Origin: Desulfuromonadaceae bacterium
GTDB taxonomy: Bacteria > Desulfobacterota > Desulfuromonadia > Geobacterales > Pseudopelobacteraceae
Reading direction: 5' to 3'
NCBI GenBank assembly: GCA_028712075.1
Contig: JAQTQX010000023.1
Location: 1-64,000 of the forward strand
DNA: 64,000 bases
Shown here: piece by piece, positions 43,797 through 55,162 of the stretch
How the letters are laid out: each line of letters starts with the position of its first letter
How positions within the stretch are numbered: position 1 is the stretch's first letter
Notes under the pieces: model-generated
Databases searched by the model: none
The model's input: the letters and a program-made list of their open reading frames with translations, nothing else
What the model was told of the DNA's origin: nothing
Made by a program: the position numbers and the translations under genes

Positions 43797-45833
43797 CTAT
43801 GACTGTTCATCCCCCTCTGGCGTATCTGCGTATTCCTTGGCAACCGTATAAAATTCCTCGTTCTTTGCATAAAATGCTGTAACCACCTCAGGATCAAATT
43901 GTTTTCCGGAACCCTGTACAATCATATCGCGGGCCTTTTCGTGAGAAAAACCTTCCTTGTAAATTCGGTGACTGACGAGTGCGTCATACACATCCGCAAG
44001 TGCCATGAGACGACCGGACAAGGGAATATCGTCACCGCTCAACCCGTATGGATAACCACAGCCATCCCAACGTTCATGATGAGATTCAATCATCTGTTGT
44101 GCATAGTGGAGAAAATCCTGTTGTTCAGGATGGCCGGTACCTTTGATAGTTTTGGATAAGGCGTCAACACCAATTGTAGTATGTCCCTTCATGACGGCAT
44201 ATTCTGAGTCGTTCAATGCCCCCGGCTTTTGGAGTATGCAATCGGGAATTCCGACTTTACCGATATCATGCAACGGCGCCGATTTGATAATAAGTTCAAT
44301 GGCACCTTCATCAAGCTCGGCATATTTGGGCAATAGTGTCAACTCCCGAATAAGAATTTCGACATAGCGCTGAGTGCGGAGAATGTGTTTACCGGTTTCC
44401 TTGTCACGGGCCTCGGCAAGTGCTGACATACTGATGATGATTGTGTCTTGAGCGTCTATCAGGTCAAGGGTACGTTGTTTCACTTTACGATATTCTATAC
44501 GGTATTTCAGCGAACTCAGAACCGTCAGAATAACAATCGGTGTCAGCATCGGCATCAGCGGTGACAAATAGATACCTTTGGCAACAAGCAGTTCACGCAT
44601 CCCCCAGTAGGAACCGATGCTCGTAACGGAAACTGCCACAAGCGACAGGCCGAATCCCGATCTGCTCAGCAGTAGGGTACTCAAAATGCCAATACACAAA
44701 ACAGCACACAATTCTGCACCTTTGGCCCAATCGGGTCGGGTTATGAATGTGCCGGACAGTATAGTATCGATAATGGTGGCGTGAATATTCAGCCCACCCA
44801 CCGACTTGCCTGACGGCGTCAGATGTTCATCTCCCAAACCTTTGGCCCAAGGCCCGACCAGGACAATTTTCCCCTTAAGTGCACCCTGAGCCTGCCCACC
44901 TTTCAAAATTGAACGGGCGGAATAATACGGGAACGTGTTTTCGTCACTGCGAAAATCGATCAGCAAATTACCTTCCCTATCAAGAGGTATGTGACGGTCA
45001 TTCCAGACCAGCCAGGTTTCTGAGCTGTTACGGTTGAGCCGTAACGTACGTTCTGAGGAGGTGAGGAGAAGAGCAGCCATTGCAAGCGACGGGTAGCAGG
45101 TGCCGTTATATGATAAAAGCAGCGGTACGCGCCGAAGAGCACCATCCCTGTCATGGAGCGCATTGGTAAAACCCTCTGCACGAACACCTTTACGTAACGG
45201 TTCAATGGTACGAATCATTGCGGTCGGTTTTGGCCATGCTGCGTCAATATCTGCAGCCTTGTGAATAACCAACCCTTCCGGGAGAACCGGTAAATAATTG
45301 TGCTCCGTTAGCGCGGTCGTTTCAGTAAAATCAAAGTAAAAGCCGAGTACACTTGTTCCTTTGGCAAGAGCTTTTGCTAACTCAAGGGAATTACTGTCAT
45401 CTGATGAATTCCGAAAATCAACAGGAGTTGTCTCATTGTCACGCAGGCGCTCGGAGATGATGACCCCGGGTGAGGTTCGATCAGGTTCGGGCATCAAAAA
45501 GTCCAGTACTACGACAACTGCTCCCAGTTCATGAAGACGTTCAACAAGACGGGCGAGCCGATAACGAGGCCACGGCCATTGACCGTAAGCGTGCAGACTT
45601 TCTTCATCGATTCCGACTAAAACAGGAACATGAGATTTGGGCGATTCCACTCGCCCGGACAGCATGAGATCATAGAGACGCAGTTCAGCCTGATGCATCA
45701 ATAGTGGCTGGTATATCAAAAGCAAGGCGTGAACGATGGTAAGAAAGAGGCCAACTGCTAATAAAAAGCCGCGACCTTCCCTGAGAGGGCGAAATCGTTG
45801 AAAAACATTACGTGGCGAAGGGGGATCAAACAT
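43797..45833 (-). CDS. CHASE2-domain membrane HD-GYP protein (c-di-GMP phosphodiesterase-like)
   Basis: A 678-residue sensor. One N-terminal transmembrane helix, a periplasmic CHASE2 domain (about 50-365; GIDEESLHAYGQWPWPR, FTNALHDRDG, DEHLTPSGKSVGG), three clustered helices (about 380-445), a short coiled coil, then an HD-GYP domain with the motifs HDIGKVGIPD, HHERWDGCGYP and LADVYDAL. It should hydrolyse cyclic di-GMP, coupled to a periplasmic signal. It lies downstream of FecR- and OmpA-type genes that form its likely input. Confidence 0.93.
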   Translation of the reverse strand: MFDPPSPRNVFQRFRPLREGRGFLLAVGLFLTIVHALLLIYQPLLMHQAELRLYDLMLSGRVESPKSHVPVLVGIDEESLHAYGQWPWPRYRLARLVERLHELGAVVVVLDFLMPEPDRTSPGVIISERLRDNETTPVDFRNSSDDSNSLELAKALAKGTSVLGFYFDFTETTALTEHNYLPVLPEGLVIHKAADIDAAWPKPTAMIRTIEPLRKGVRAEGFTNALHDRDGALRRVPLLLSYNGTCYPSLAMAALLLTSSERTLRLNRNSSETWLVWNDRHIPLDREGNLLIDFRSDENTFPYYSARSILKGGQAQGALKGKIVLVGPWAKGLGDEHLTPSGKSVGGLNIHATIIDTILSGTFITRPDWAKGAELCAVLCIGILSTLLLSRSGFGLSLVAVSVTSIGSYWGMRELLVAKGIYLSPLMPMLTPIVILTVLSSLKYRIEYRKVKQRTLDLIDAQDTIIISMSALAEARDKETGKHILRTQRYVEILIRELTLLPKYAELDEGAIELIIKSAPLHDIGKVGIPDCILQKPGALNDSEYAVMKGHTTIGVDALSKTIKGTGHPEQQDFLHYAQQMIESHHERWDGCGYPYGLSGDDIPLSGRLMALADVYDALVSHRIYKEGFSHEKARDMIVQGSGKQFDPEVVTAFYAKNEEFYTVAKEYADTPEGDEQS

Positions 45834-45848
45834 AAGAGCAGAAAAGGG

Positions 45849-46454
45849 TTATTGCACGATGACTTCAACCCGACGGTTGCGCGGTTCAGCAACACCATCG
45901 GGGGTGGGGACAAGAGGATTCCCTTTGCCATGAGATGACACCGTTATCAGGTCTGGATTGATCCCATTCTGCAACAAAAGGTCCCTGATTAACAAGGCGC
46001 GTTCCCGGGCAAGTTTTTCGTTGAATTGGTCCGTACCGGTCGCATCGGTATGTCCACTTATGCGAATGCTGGTAACACCACGTTTTTTGCAGACGGTCAA
46101 AATGGCGGTAATGGCGGCATGGGACTCCGTACTCATTGTGGTTGTGCCGGTTGCAAAAAAAAGGATGAATTTTTTCGGTGGTAGCGGCTGAGCCGCCATA
46201 GCTTCAGCAAAGGTGACAGCAATATAATCAGGGGGGGCAGTCATAACTGAAGAGGGTGATGCAGGAGAACCGGATACGCGTGTCATATCCCCCGGTTTTT
46301 CAAGAAGTTGTTTTCCTCCAGCGGTAATAACCTCCGCTTTTCCGATACGCCCATCCGGGTCAGTAACCAGAATGACGGAGTGTTGTGGCAAGCAACTGGA
46401 GAGAAAAAGAATCATCAGAATAGCCGTCAGCATGCCTGATATTGGATTGTTCAT
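45849..46454 (-). CDS. OmpA-family lipoprotein
   Basis: A 201-residue exported lipoprotein: a signal peptide ending in the lipobox LSSC (Cys about 20) and a C-terminal OmpA peptidoglycan-binding domain with HAAITAIL, RISGHTDATGTDQFNEKLA, and GNPLVPTPDGVAEPRNRRVEV. An Asn/Pro-rich linker separates them. It should anchor to peptidoglycan and the outer membrane. The ATG at 46454 is preferred over 46478 as it gives a normal lipoprotein signal. It precedes the CHASE2/HD-GYP gene by 15 nt. Confidence 0.85.
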   Translation of the reverse strand: MNNPISGMLTAILMILFLSSCLPQHSVILVTDPDGRIGKAEVITAGGKQLLEKPGDMTRVSGSPASPSSVMTAPPDYIAVTFAEAMAAQPLPPKKFILFFATGTTTMSTESHAAITAILTVCKKRGVTSIRISGHTDATGTDQFNEKLARERALLIRDLLLQNGINPDLITVSSHGKGNPLVPTPDGVAEPRNRRVEVIVQ

Positions 46455-46493
46455 GATTGTACTCACTGAAGCAGGCATAAATAACGAAATGAA

Positions 46494-46940
46494 CTAATTA
46501 TCCTGTACTTCAACCAGTAGTTTTGTCCCCCTGGCTGAAATGGTTGCATCAGGGATAGACAGCTGGACGGCATTAGGAGAGAGTTTTCCTATCAACCCCG
46601 AGAGATATACGAACGTTCCCTTGACCATCCGTACCGCTAAAGAGAACCTTTCCTCCTTAGGATCAAAGAGATAACTGCTGATAGAAAGTTCGCTGTTAGG
46701 GCCGAGGGAAATGGTCGTGCCATCGGTTAACACAATACCGGCAGCGCCAGGTTTTGCAGTGCGGATCAGGTCTGAATGGTAGATCGGTGTGCCGACAGAA
46801 CCGGGCAGCGTTGAATTTCCTCGCAGTATCGATACGTGTCCATTAAGTGTTTGAATGTGGCCGACCGGATCACCCTGCACTGCATACGCCGTAGAACCGG
46901 TGAGTACAAAAATCAGTAAACAGAATACATAATATTTCAT
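46494..46940 (-). CDS. FecR-domain periplasmic protein
   Basis: A 148-residue exported protein with a signal peptide (about 1-20) and a FecR-like domain: VGHIQTLNGHVSILRG, DLIRTAKPGAAGIVLTDGT and the ARGTKLLVEVQ end, with the LGPNSELSISSY strand. FecR domains bind or sense cues in the periplasm. It is the first gene of an operon with the OmpA-type lipoprotein and CHASE2/HD-GYP gene and has its own promoter upstream. The substrate or partner is unknown. Confidence 0.88.
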   Translation of the reverse strand: MKYYVFCLLIFVLTGSTAYAVQGDPVGHIQTLNGHVSILRGNSTLPGSVGTPIYHSDLIRTAKPGAAGIVLTDGTTISLGPNSELSISSYLFDPKEERFSLAVRMVKGTFVYLSGLIGKLSPNAVQLSIPDATISARGTKLLVEVQDN

Positions 46941-47082: not shown

Positions 47083-47301
47083 TCATTTTCTCATACGTTC
47101 AATACGCTCTTTTACCGTTATAAGAAGCTTTCTGGCCCAGACGTATTCAGTTGCAAGGATCGTCAACCCGATAGGTATAACAACTATCGCAGGTCCTGGT
47201 AACACGATCATGGCAATACCAGTAGCCAGGATTGTAAAACCGATTACTACAACAATCAGACGTTTTGCCTGAGCCAATGATCTGAAAAGAATATCATTCA
47301 T
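47083..47301 (-). CDS. PGPGW-type small membrane protein
   Basis: A 72-residue membrane protein with two hydrophobic helices around a conserved LPGPAIVVIPIGL motif typical of the PGPGW (PF09656) family, followed by ILATEYVWARK and a basic C-terminus. Function unknown. It is 95 nt downstream of htpX in the same direction and may share its riboswitch-controlled transcript. Confidence 0.85.
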   Translation of the reverse strand: MNDILFRSLAQAKRLIVVVIGFTILATGIAMIVLPGPAIVVIPIGLTILATEYVWARKLLITVKERIERMRK

Positions 47302-47395: not shown

Positions 47396-48262
47396 TCACT
47401 TCCTTGACCCGGCTGCCAGCGCTTCGAGCCGTGCGATACGTTCTTCCATCGGCGGGTGAGTTGAAAAAAGTGACATTAATCCTCCTCCGGTCAAAGGGTT
47501 GACAATAAACATATGAGCTGTTGCGGGGCGTGCTTCCTGGAGTGGAATCATCTGAGAAACGTTGTGCAGTTTGCGTAAGGCACCTGCCAGTGCCAGTGGG
47601 CGACCGCAGATTTCGGCTCCGGATGAATCGGCAAGATATTCGCGAGAACGTGATATCGCCATTTGTATCAGCATTGCGGCGATGGGGGCAATAATTGCCA
47701 TTGCCAGCGAACCGACCACACTGCCTGCTCCGCCTTCTTCCTCATCGCTGCGACCTGCACCGAACAGTGCGCCCCACTGCAACATATTGCCAATCATCGA
47801 GATAGCACCGGCAAAGGTTGCAGCAATACTGGAAATGAGAATATCACGGTTTTTAACATGTGCCAGTTCGTGAGCCATAACCCCTTCAAGCTCCTCCGGG
47901 GTAAGGATGCGCAGTACCCCTTCTGTTGCGGCAACAGCGGCATGAGCGGGATTACGACCCGTGGCAAAGGCGTTGGGGGAATCATCCGGGATGATATACA
48001 CTTTGGGCATAGGCAGTTGTGCCCTGACGGTCAGACGCTCAATCATACCGTAAAAGAACGGCTGTTCCTCTCGAGTAATCTCATGAGCATTGTACATTCT
48101 GAGGACAATTTTGTCAGAAAACCAGTAGGAGCCGAAGTTCATGATGGCTGCCATGAAAAATGCGAGAATCATGCCGTTCTTACCTCCAACAGCTCCCCCC
48201 ATGAAAACCAGTAAGAGGGTTAACAAGCTCAGTAGAAAAGTAGTTTTTAAAACATTATTCAT
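47396..48262 (-). CDS. htpX: Membrane zinc protease HtpX (M48B)
   Basis: 288 residues. Two N-terminal transmembrane helices, the zinc motif HELAH (131-135), and a second pair of hydrophobic helices around 150-200, with [11 protein letters not shown] between them and the third zinc ligand in [12 protein letters not shown]. HtpX degrades misfolded membrane proteins in the cytoplasmic membrane. GGAGGT lies a few nt before the ATG. A yybP-ykoY riboswitch precedes the gene, a link that I do not know from experiment. Confidence 0.97.
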
Positions 48263-48303: not shown

Positions 48304-48356
48304 AAAAAGACCCTCACCCGCAGCGTAATGGTAAACGCGTTGGATAAAGGTCTTGC
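48304..48356 (-). terminator. Riboswitch expression-platform terminator before htpX
   Basis: Minus-strand RNA AAGACCUUUAUCC pairs with GGGUGAGGGUCUU (13 bp, a few G-U), with an inner 4-bp GCGU/ACGC stem, followed by UUUUUAUU. The 5' arm AAGACCUUUAU is also the 3' strand of riboswitch helix P1, so aptamer folding and termination exclude each other. Confidence 0.88.
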
Positions 48357-48447
48357 TTGCGATAACACGTTCCCGATCCGAGTCTTTCGACTGTGTTGAC
48401 GGACACGGGATCAACCATGTCTCCGGTTGATAGCTACTCCCCTTTAT
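48344..48447 (-). ncRNA. yybP-ykoY (manganese) riboswitch aptamer
   Basis: On the minus strand the leader reads AUAAAGGGGAGUAGC at its 5' end, CCGUCAACACAG in the middle and GCAAGACCUUUAU at its 3' end: the conserved L1, L3 and P1 elements of the yybP-ykoY family. The P1 helix pairs AUAAAGG with CCUUUAU. Other regions can form the two hairpins of the aptamer (AUCAACC/GGUUGAU and a stem around CGAAAG). The family binds Mn2+. It starts a few nt after the transcript start and ends in the htpX leader. Confidence 0.95.
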
Positions 48448-48456
48448 GCGATTTTG

Positions 48457-48485
48457 AATATAATCATCGTTATAGCGCTTGTCAA
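48457..48485 (-). promoter_or_regulatory. Promoter of riboswitch-htpX transcript
   Basis: Minus-strand TTGACA (48480-48485), a 17-nt spacer, and TATATT (48457-48462). The predicted start is near 48450, just ahead of the first aptamer base. Confidence 0.85.
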
Positions 48486-48545: not shown

Positions 48546-49400
48546 TCAGCGTTTGACACGAGGATCAAGGGCATCCCGTATCCCCTCACCAAGTAGATTG
48601 TAGGCCAAGACCGTTAGCAAAATTGCCAATCCAGGAAATAGCGACAGCCACCAGGCAAATTCAATATAATCCTTGCCGGAAGTGAGAATGTTGCCCCAGC
48701 TTGGCGTTGGAGGCTGTACGCCAATACCAAGAAAAGATAGTGCTGATTCAGTGAGGATAGCTCCGGCGACACCAAGTGTTGCTGAGACAAGTACGGGAGA
48801 AACTGCATTAGGAAGAATATGGCGAAACATAATGCGACTGTTGGAACAGCCAATACAGCGCGCTGCTAGAATATAATCCATTTCGCGAATAGAGAGGGTT
48901 TCAGCCCTTACAAGCCTGGCTACCCCCATCCAGCCCGTTAACCCTATAACCATCATGATGTACCAGATAGATGGCTCCAAAAAGGTTATTATGGCCAGAA
49001 TCAGAAAAAATGCGGGGAAACAGAGCATAATATCGACAAATCTCATCAGAGTTGCATCAACCAGACCACCAAAATATCCTGATACAAGACCGACTACGGT
49101 GCCGATTGAAACAGCAATCCCAACTGCAACAAATCCAACTTTGAGCGAGACTCGCGCACCAAAAAGGACTCGACTGAAGACATCTCTCCCTAACTCATCA
49201 GTACCACACCAATGCTGCCATGATGGCGGCGACAACACGTGCCAGGCATTGATAGCGTCCGGGTCGTATGGAGCAATCAACGGGGCAAACAGTGAGACAG
49301 CGAACAGCGCCAGCACGACACAGCCACCGAAAAGGGCAAAACGGTTCCGTTTGAGCCGTGGCCAGAAGATTGCAAAAAAATATGAGTTCGTAAGGGTCAT
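48546..49400 (-). CDS. Peptide/nickel-type ABC transporter permease (DppC/OppC-like)
   Basis: A 284-residue inner-membrane permease with one N-terminal helix and a binding-protein-dependent transport domain of five helices; the EAA-loop region reads YILAARCIGCSNSRIMFRHILPN, and the N-terminal segment LAPYDPDAINAWHVLSPPS is typical of the DppC family. It pairs with the DppB-like protein encoded upstream to form the channel for peptides or related solutes. No ATPase gene follows. Confidence 0.93.
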   Translation of the reverse strand: MTLTNSYFFAIFWPRLKRNRFALFGGCVVLALFAVSLFAPLIAPYDPDAINAWHVLSPPSWQHWCGTDELGRDVFSRVLFGARVSLKVGFVAVGIAVSIGTVVGLVSGYFGGLVDATLMRFVDIMLCFPAFFLILAIITFLEPSIWYIMMVIGLTGWMGVARLVRAETLSIREMDYILAARCIGCSNSRIMFRHILPNAVSPVLVSATLGVAGAILTESALSFLGIGVQPPTPSWGNILTSGKDYIEFAWWLSLFPGLAILLTVLAYNLLGEGIRDALDPRVKR

Positions 49401-53724: not shown

Positions 53725-53854
53725 ACGGAAGGATCTTCCTATTTCAAAAAAATAAAGTATCAAAAGCTATCATGAATCATTTTATTGGTCAAACGATAAT
53801 AATAATTGGCACGTTGCAGTTGACATCACACTCATCCACGTGGAAAATACACCC

Positions 53855-55162
53855 ATGAATCACACCATTTTCAAGCTTTTTCTTGTGCTGCTGCTGGTCG
53901 TCGCTAACGGTTTCTTCGTGGCGGCAGAATTTTCTCTCGTTTCAGTACGTCGCTCCCGAATTGCCACGCTTGCAGATAGTGGTGATACCCGTGCCCAAAA
54001 ATTACTGGGATTACTCGACAATCTCAATTCCTATATATCTGCGACGCAACTCGGCATTACCATGGCGTCTCTTGCACTTGGCTGGATTGGTGAACCAGCT
54101 CTGTCACATATTCTTGAAGCGCCACTTCATGGCCTCGTTTCGGATTCAGTCAGGCACACAATCGCTTTTATCTTAGCTTTTACTATCATCACATTCCTGC
54201 ATATCGTGCTCGGTGAACTTGCGCCGAAAACACTGGCACTGGACCGGTCAGAACGGGTAGCTCTTGCTGTGGCGTGGCCGTTACGGCTGTTTCACACTTT
54301 GTTCGGCTGGCCGATCCGTCTGCTCGATTTTGCCGGCAGAAGCACCGTCAGACTTCTGGGATTCAAGTGCTCACCTGAACATACCAGCATATATACCGTG
54401 GATGAACTGCGGCAAATTATCAATATATTTCACACAAGTGGCGCACTTGAAGCTGATGAGCAGCAGATGCTCCACCGCATATTTGAATTCTCCGATTCTG
54501 AAGTCCAGGATATCATGATACCCCGCTATGCCGTTACAGCACTTCCAGTAACTGCCACACGCGAAGAAACTCTTGAGCTCTTCAACACGTTGGGCTTTTC
54601 CCGGATCCCGGTGTATCAGGATCAACTTGATAATATTCTCGGAATTGTTGTCAGAAGAGATCTTGAACCGTACCTATCCGGCACGGATGCTCCCGATTTT
54701 GATCTTGCCAAGCTCATACACCCACCCCGCTTTGTCCCGACCAACGCTCAGTTAAGTGCTGCCCTGAAGCAGATGCAGGCGGCCCGGACCCACATGGTAT
54801 TTGTTGTCGATGAATATGGGGGATTCGAGGGAATAATAACCTTGGAAGATCTGCTGGAAGAAATAGTGGGAGAAATAGATGACGAGTATGACGATATTTC
54901 ACAAGCCCAATGCATCAAGGATAATAACGGTTATCTGCTTGATGGCATGATGACAATACGAGAGGTGAATATACAGCTGAGTCTTGATCTGCCAGAGGAG
55001 GCTCCGTACTCAACTATTGCCGGATTCGTTCTCGCTCAAGCGGGCCGTCTGCTGCAGCAAGGGGAAAGTATTCTATACCATGACACCCGTTTTACTGTTG
55101 AAAGTGTTGATCGTAAAAGGATTCGGCGGCTCAGAGTCACGATTGAAAGGCTGGTTGCGTGA
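53855..55162 (+). CDS. CNNM/HlyC-CorC family membrane protein
   Basis: 435 residues. A DUF21/CNNM membrane domain with four helices (about 5-185, including [16 protein letters not shown]), a CBS pair (about 215-335, [13 protein letters not shown] and [15 protein letters not shown]), and a C-terminal CorC/HlyC domain. Members are thought to export or regulate Mg2+/Co2+. An ATG at 53855 is preferred; a GTG at 53840 would add five residues. It overlaps the next gene by 4 nt (GTGA). Confidence 0.9.

Follow-up and report, generated by a model that had tools for sequence, protein, structure and literature searches.

A yybP-ykoY-class leader upstream of htpX points to a membrane protease in the manganese riboswitch regulon of Desulfuromonadia

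Our analysis of the window (the whole 64,000-nucleotide stretch of contig JAQTQX010000023.1, from a Desulfuromonadaceae bacterium) makes it highly probable, from sequence comparison, that the RNA encoded at 48343-48447 on the minus strand is a yybP-ykoY riboswitch aptamer and that the downstream gene, htpX, is a member of its regulon. By homology to the class, the leader is predicted to bind Mn2+ and to turn htpX on in response. The riboswitch class is a known one; htpX appears to be new as a target within the literature searched, and would be an addition to the genes that the class controls. The features of the locus are the following:

48457..48485, minus strand: sigma-70-type promoter, TTGACA-17-TATATT, with 11 of 12 consensus matches
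48343..48447, minus strand: very probable yybP-ykoY (Mn2+) riboswitch aptamer with four helices, assigned by alignment, covariation, model matches and fold
48439, minus strand: counterpart of G9, whose phosphate is a ligand at the Mn site; G throughout both alignments
48397, minus strand: adenosine that matches A41, the Mn-sensing residue of the Lactococcus lactis riboswitch, with the equivalence set by motif (UCA = 39-41)
48304..48354, minus strand: intrinsic terminator of 13 bp, with its 5' arm at 48354-48342, its 3' arm at 48319-48307 and its U-run at 48308-48304
47396..48262, minus strand: htpX, M48 membrane zinc metalloprotease, an open frame with an HEXXH motif (HELAH)
47083..47301, minus strand: PGPGW small membrane protein (PF09656)

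The first-pass annotation of this DNA had described the promoter, the aptamer parts L1 (GGGGAGUAG), L3 (CCGUCAACA) and P1 3' strand (GCAAGACCUUUAU), and a membrane zinc protease gene followed by one for a PGPGW membrane protein, and all of these were found again on the minus strand, with family profiles in agreement for both proteins. HtpX scores 113.4 bits with the Pfam M48 profile PF01435 (cut-off, 20.3) and 411.5 bits with NCBIfam NF002826 (cut-off, 369), and its translation contains the HELAH form of HEXXH. The promoter call is weak evidence alone, as a scan of 1.8 kb gave four sites of this kind, versus 2.7 (SD, 1.9) in shuffles, and an exact TTGACA lies close upstream of the aptamer in 10 of the 12 leaders printed out. 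The nearest gene upstream on the same strand encodes an oligopeptide-permease subunit (48546-49400), which ends 60 bp ahead of the htpX promoter. Downstream, a GGAGG-type ribosome site lies between the terminator and the htpX start codon at 48262, which is 41 nt past the terminator U-run. The PGPGW gene at the 3' side, which adjoins htpX also at four other loci (L131, L274, L330 and L359), is probably cotranscribed with it.

The class assignment was examined with leaders of related htpX genes. The HtpX of the window was searched against 76 genomes of the family, and the upstream stretches of 90 loci were fetched; 51 of these carried the element by motif scan, 48 of them distinct. In an alignment of 49 htpX leaders (A1, to which one incomplete row, L049, was added by reference), RNAalifold returned helices P1, P1.2, P2, P3 and P4 with 33 pairs, 18 of which have changed on both sides. 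Over these leaders 97.8% of the cells pair in keeping with the consensus structure, versus 22 to 46% in slid versions, and none of 500 shuffles scored as high in paired cells, two-sided changes or covariation score; a further measure, the number of further pair types, gave no excess over shuffles in the same 49 leaders (333/500). The window copy carries L1 GGGGAGUAG, L3 CGUCA, the P1 3' strand AGACCUUU and paired helices P1 to P4. Folded on its own, the aptamer forms P1 to P4, with P1 in place (z, -2.71) and with a weak P4 of 3 bp.

Two covariance models tie these leaders to experimentally studied members of the class. R1 was trained on the 49 htpX leaders only, and in 21 kb of Escherichia coli DNA its sole match was the alx leader (36.3 bits; E, 6.8e-9), with no match to mntP in the same DNA. 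R2, whose training set includes E. coli alx and excludes mntP, scored 51.1 bits on alx, a member of its training set, and 49.5 bits on mntP, outside it. The window aptamer itself scores 114.7 bits with R1, a value that is high by construction, since its own sequence is in the training set. Thus E. coli alx and mntP resemble the htpX leaders closely enough to be found by models grown from them, and they differ in lying ahead of genes annotated as Mn exporters. The E. coli htpX gene is some 5.4 kb away from mntP, and neither R1 nor R2 gave a match beside htpX in the 12 kb read. Taken together, the covariation, the conserved architecture and the matches to alx and mntP support the yybP-ykoY class that the first-pass annotation had named. 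In the window, a gene for a CNNM-CBS-CorC family membrane protein (53840-55162, plus strand) lies about 5.6 kb from htpX, with no R1 match beside it.

The Rfam model of the class, RF00080, gave no match in the window at its gathering score, and in a permissive search the window RNA reached 9.6 bits, versus a cut-off of 45. Over the window's own genome it had no matches, and the same search matched 5 of 14 control genomes, 2 of them above the cut-off. The absence of a covariance-model hit had been named in advance as grounds for giving up the class, and with Rfam there is formally no hit; however, the same model also fails its cut-off on the E. coli elements. With Rfam 15, RF00080 scores 41.6 bits on the E. 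coli mntP leader (L186:3462-3558) and does not list the alx leader (L187:2375-2501) at E values up to 0.1. Because it misses its cut-off on mntP and omits alx, its silence on htpX leaders says little, and we judge this silence to be a failure of the model, a matter of its detection threshold. The lack of an Rfam match at the gathering score could also be taken to mean that the leader has a mere chance similarity to the class or is a generic terminator hairpin, but the covariation, the recurrence across families and the model matches to E. coli alx and mntP leave this reading with a negligible probability. It follows from the Rfam outcome that the current model misses this set of putative Mn riboswitches and that surveys relying on RF00080 undercount the regulon. 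The snoRNA and CRISPR-repeat matches of the permissive Rfam search were weak (E, 1.1 to 9.4) and were taken as chance.

In the L. lactis riboswitch, as described in the available text of PMC9190785, Mn2+ is held by the phosphates of G9, U39, C40, U44 and C45 and by N7 of A41. The equivalents in the window, placed by motif, are 48439 (G9), 48399 (U39), 48398 (C40), 48397 (A41), 48394 (U44) and 48393 (C45). The equivalents of A41 and G9 are A and G, respectively, in all leaders of both alignments (49/49 in A1 and 51/51 in A2), and that of U39 is U in 49/49 and 45/51. Position 44 is occupied by A in 49/49 and 48/51; the L. lactis contact of U44 is to its phosphate. These residues are consistent with Mn2+ binding by the htpX leader, as class homology would predict. 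It is conceivable that the leader is a yybP-ykoY relative whose ligand has changed or whose metal response has been lost, so that it acts as a constitutive attenuator, and the low Rfam score and the weak P4 of the window copy fit this idea. We regard it as very unlikely, however, given the conserved metal-site residues, the strong covariation, the presence of the same RNA ahead of terC and of a P-type cation ATPase gene in the window genome, and a terminator that overlaps the aptamer in 96 of 96 htpX leaders read.

When the whole leader is folded, its minimum-energy structure contains the terminator and lacks P1 (z, -3.42), which bears out an earlier reading of a 13-bp terminator whose 5' arm overlaps the P1 3' strand. 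A simple terminator scan, which admits loops of 3 to 8 only, omits it. A hairpin with a T-run that starts on the P1 3' strand was found at 51 of 51 family htpX loci (four with a partial htpX match) and in 45 of 45 htpX leaders outside the family, and when the downstream parts were block-shuffled a hairpin of -17 kcal/mol or better arose in 16 of 960 cases. Another 110 leaders, almost all of them ahead of genes other than htpX, show the overlap with the single exception of L296 (109/110). This conservation speaks for the ON-type terminator platform that the first-pass annotation had proposed. In L. lactis yoaB, according to the available text of PMC9190785, P1.1 is held by Mn2+ at the expense of the terminator, and by homology we infer the same direction, Mn2+-ON, for htpX. 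Transcription would start just upstream of the aptamer; at low Mn2+ the terminator would capture the P1 3' strand and transcription would stop, and at high Mn2+ the L1-L3 metal site would form and P1 would be held, so that the terminator is blocked and htpX is made. Antitermination by Mn2+ would in this way turn on htpX and probably the PGPGW gene too. The yoaB riboswitch resembles the htpX leader in its four helices, its L1 and L3 loops, its Mn-sensing A and its competition of P1.1 with a terminator in an ON switch; it differs in standing ahead of yoaB and in having been studied experimentally, whereas the leader described here stands ahead of a membrane protease and is known from sequence. 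A point against this reading comes from Vibrio parahaemolyticus, in which, according to the available part of an RNA-seq study, reads did not drop off in a pronounced way at a yybP-ykoY element predicted there (PMC13274385).

The association of the switch with htpX that had been read from a single locus is conserved. The 76 family genomes contain 50 HtpX matches with an identity of 73% or higher across 270 residues or more, and the switch lies directly upstream in 47 of them, a reading of upstream regions that excludes a few truncated HtpX matches. In the remaining three (L007, L008 and L024) the R1 match is farther off, 3.6 to 6.5 kb upstream and in the same orientation, at the head of a string of same-strand genes that runs through terC and others, including UPF0182, to htpX. 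None of the 36 HtpX loci of 66 to 70% identity has the element by motif scan or R2. R1 matches 64 of the 76 family genomes, including 49 of the 53 good ones, and gave no match in the other 12, including 4 good ones.

A tree of HtpX, made by a quick method from 81 rows (79 of the 80 named loci plus two of the window genome), contains one clade (SH-aLRT, 99) in which 28 of 29 rows are linked to the switch, with the switch lying 3.6 kb upstream in one of these (L196); none of the other 52 rows is linked, although for three of them (L218, L237 and L264), with no more than about 210 nt of upstream sequence, the absence is uncertain. In the odd row of the clade (L189) a same-strand run of open reading frames precedes htpX, and at a locus compared with it (G480:C151) an R2 match lies about 6.4 kb upstream, heading terC and a Tim44-like gene. 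The tree and the family-genome counts partly share assemblies (e.g., L196 and G025), and therefore the two results are not independent. By R1, the window genome holds five copies of the riboswitch:

Copy 1: the window, ahead of htpX
Copy 2: C45:38362, ahead of a second htpX, 80% identical, with an open frame
Copy 3: C51:260207, ahead of an htpX start close to the end of the contig, its matched frame interrupted by a stop
Copy 4: C51:183516, ahead of terC-UPF0182 (L127)
Copy 5: C39:62265, ahead of genes for a CBS protein and a P-type cation ATPase (L126)

Relatives of the window RNA thus precede Mn-related genes (those for TerC and a P-type cation ATPase), and among 58 further family loci, mostly picked for a nonadjacent htpX, terC is the first gene in 25.

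The association is also found outside the family. R1 matched 34 of 395 genomes of the phylum and R2 matched 112 of 195 genomes of the class, family members included in both. Outside the family, the genes behind 97 aptamers were read, 24 from the R1 search and the rest among the R2 matches listed (7 weak R1 matches, and R2 matches beyond the best-scoring ones listed, were left out), and the first genes were named by tblastn with ten reference proteins. Among the matches listed, the first gene is htpX in 45, Tim44-like in 12 plus 3 labelled via a shorter relative, terC in 10, a P-type ATPase gene in 9, alx-type terC in 5, UPF0182 in 5 and another gene or none in 8; the htpX share (45/97) is inflated, as the models were grown from htpX leaders and only the best-scoring R2 matches were read. 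Within 1.7 kb behind these 45 htpX genes lies terC in 19 and alx-type terC in 6 (25/45, again among the matches listed). Several families of the phylum share the htpX link, often with terC or alx in the same gene string, and two families from outside the class (f51 and f62) also have the element ahead of htpX. Genes for Tim44-like and related small proteins, UPF0182, VTT-domain proteins and Zn-ribbon proteins recur behind the riboswitch (L163, L138, L165, L128 and others); a literature search on UPF0182 and riboswitch found nothing, and we saw no stated Mn link for UPF0182, Tim44-like, VTT or Zn-ribbon proteins.

From these gene neighbourhoods, one HtpX clade in Desulfuromonadia looks like a standing member of a predicted Mn2+-ON regulon, whose other members would be TerC/Alx, a P-type cation ATPase and UPF0182, Tim44-like and VTT-domain proteins. 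The riboswitch might instead serve mainly its operon mates (TerC, UPF0182 and PGPGW) with htpX as a passenger, as the three family genomes in which htpX ends a riboswitch-terC-UPF0182 string would allow. We consider this improbable, because htpX lies directly behind the switch in nearly all family cases, is the first gene behind nearly half of the outside-family aptamers read among the matches listed, and is tied to the switch in one HtpX clade.

Within the literature searched on riboswitch or yybP-ykoY together with htpX, a link between the two was not found, as far as the available texts go, and supplementary tables outside that search may hold one; a search on manganese riboswitch and peptidase also found nothing. 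One of the main comparative surveys left the delta-proteobacterial lineage out of its analysis, as its available text states (PMC3766115), and the available part of a review of Mn regulation names YqgP as the Mn-linked protease, with htpX not seen there (PMC9334652). Work on the TerC proteins of Bacillus subtilis comes close to the present case, in that meeY is under a Mn riboswitch and HtpX copurified with the TerC protein MeeF; it differs in that the available text does not present htpX as the target of a riboswitch (PMC10550928). The same source reports that FtsH is essential when MeeF and MeeY are both missing. A second likeness is the Mn-potentiated membrane proteolysis of MgtE by YqgP with FtsH in B. 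subtilis, which protects cells against Mn; according to the available text, Mn acts there on a domain of the protease itself with no riboswitch, and the proteases are a rhomboid and FtsH, not HtpX (PMC7231995).

What HtpX would do under such control is less clear. Given the shared gene strings, the copurification with MeeF and the FtsH dependence, and the YqgP-FtsH proteolysis, the likeliest task of HtpX is quality control of membrane proteins when Mn2+ is in excess, next to TerC at the membrane or secretion machinery, a role that we think has about an even chance of being the right one. Clearance of mis-metallated or misfolded membrane proteins, as the first-pass annotation suggested, is one of several possible roles. 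The YqgP-FtsH precedent could also suggest that Mn2+-induced HtpX, with the riboswitch accepted, cuts a specific metal transporter and so limits Mn2+ entry. We find this a fair alternative but the less likely one, since the recurrent neighbours are TerC/Alx, UPF0182, Tim44-like and PGPGW proteins and not one importer. If quality control is indeed the task, our results raise the further possibility, which we hold slightly more tentatively, that the Mn2+-riboswitch regulon of Desulfuromonadia pairs Mn export and metalation (TerC/Alx and P-type ATPase) with a dedicated membrane quality-control arm, made up of a Mn-devoted HtpX paralogue and Tim44-like, UPF0182, PGPGW and VTT-domain proteins, in which HtpX cooperates with TerC at the secretion machinery and removes proteins that excess Mn2+ has damaged or jammed. 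Desulfuromonadia include metal reducers that are able to make much Mn2+. On this reading, membrane proteolysis would join the processes under an RNA manganese sensor, the riboswitch link would be a genetic counterpart to the reported copurification of HtpX with a TerC protein, and a testable claim would be that, in these bacteria, it is membrane or exported proteins that are damaged when Mn2+ is in excess.

Some loci show other arrangements around htpX. At L130, L135 and L146 only short htpX-like pieces lie behind the riboswitch, which suggests that riboswitch-linked copies of htpX have been lost repeatedly. In the window, genes for FecR-like, OmpA and CHASE2-HD proteins (43797-46940, minus strand) come next after htpX and the PGPGW gene, in the same direction; a promoter-like site (47007-46980) precedes them, and they probably form a separate unit.
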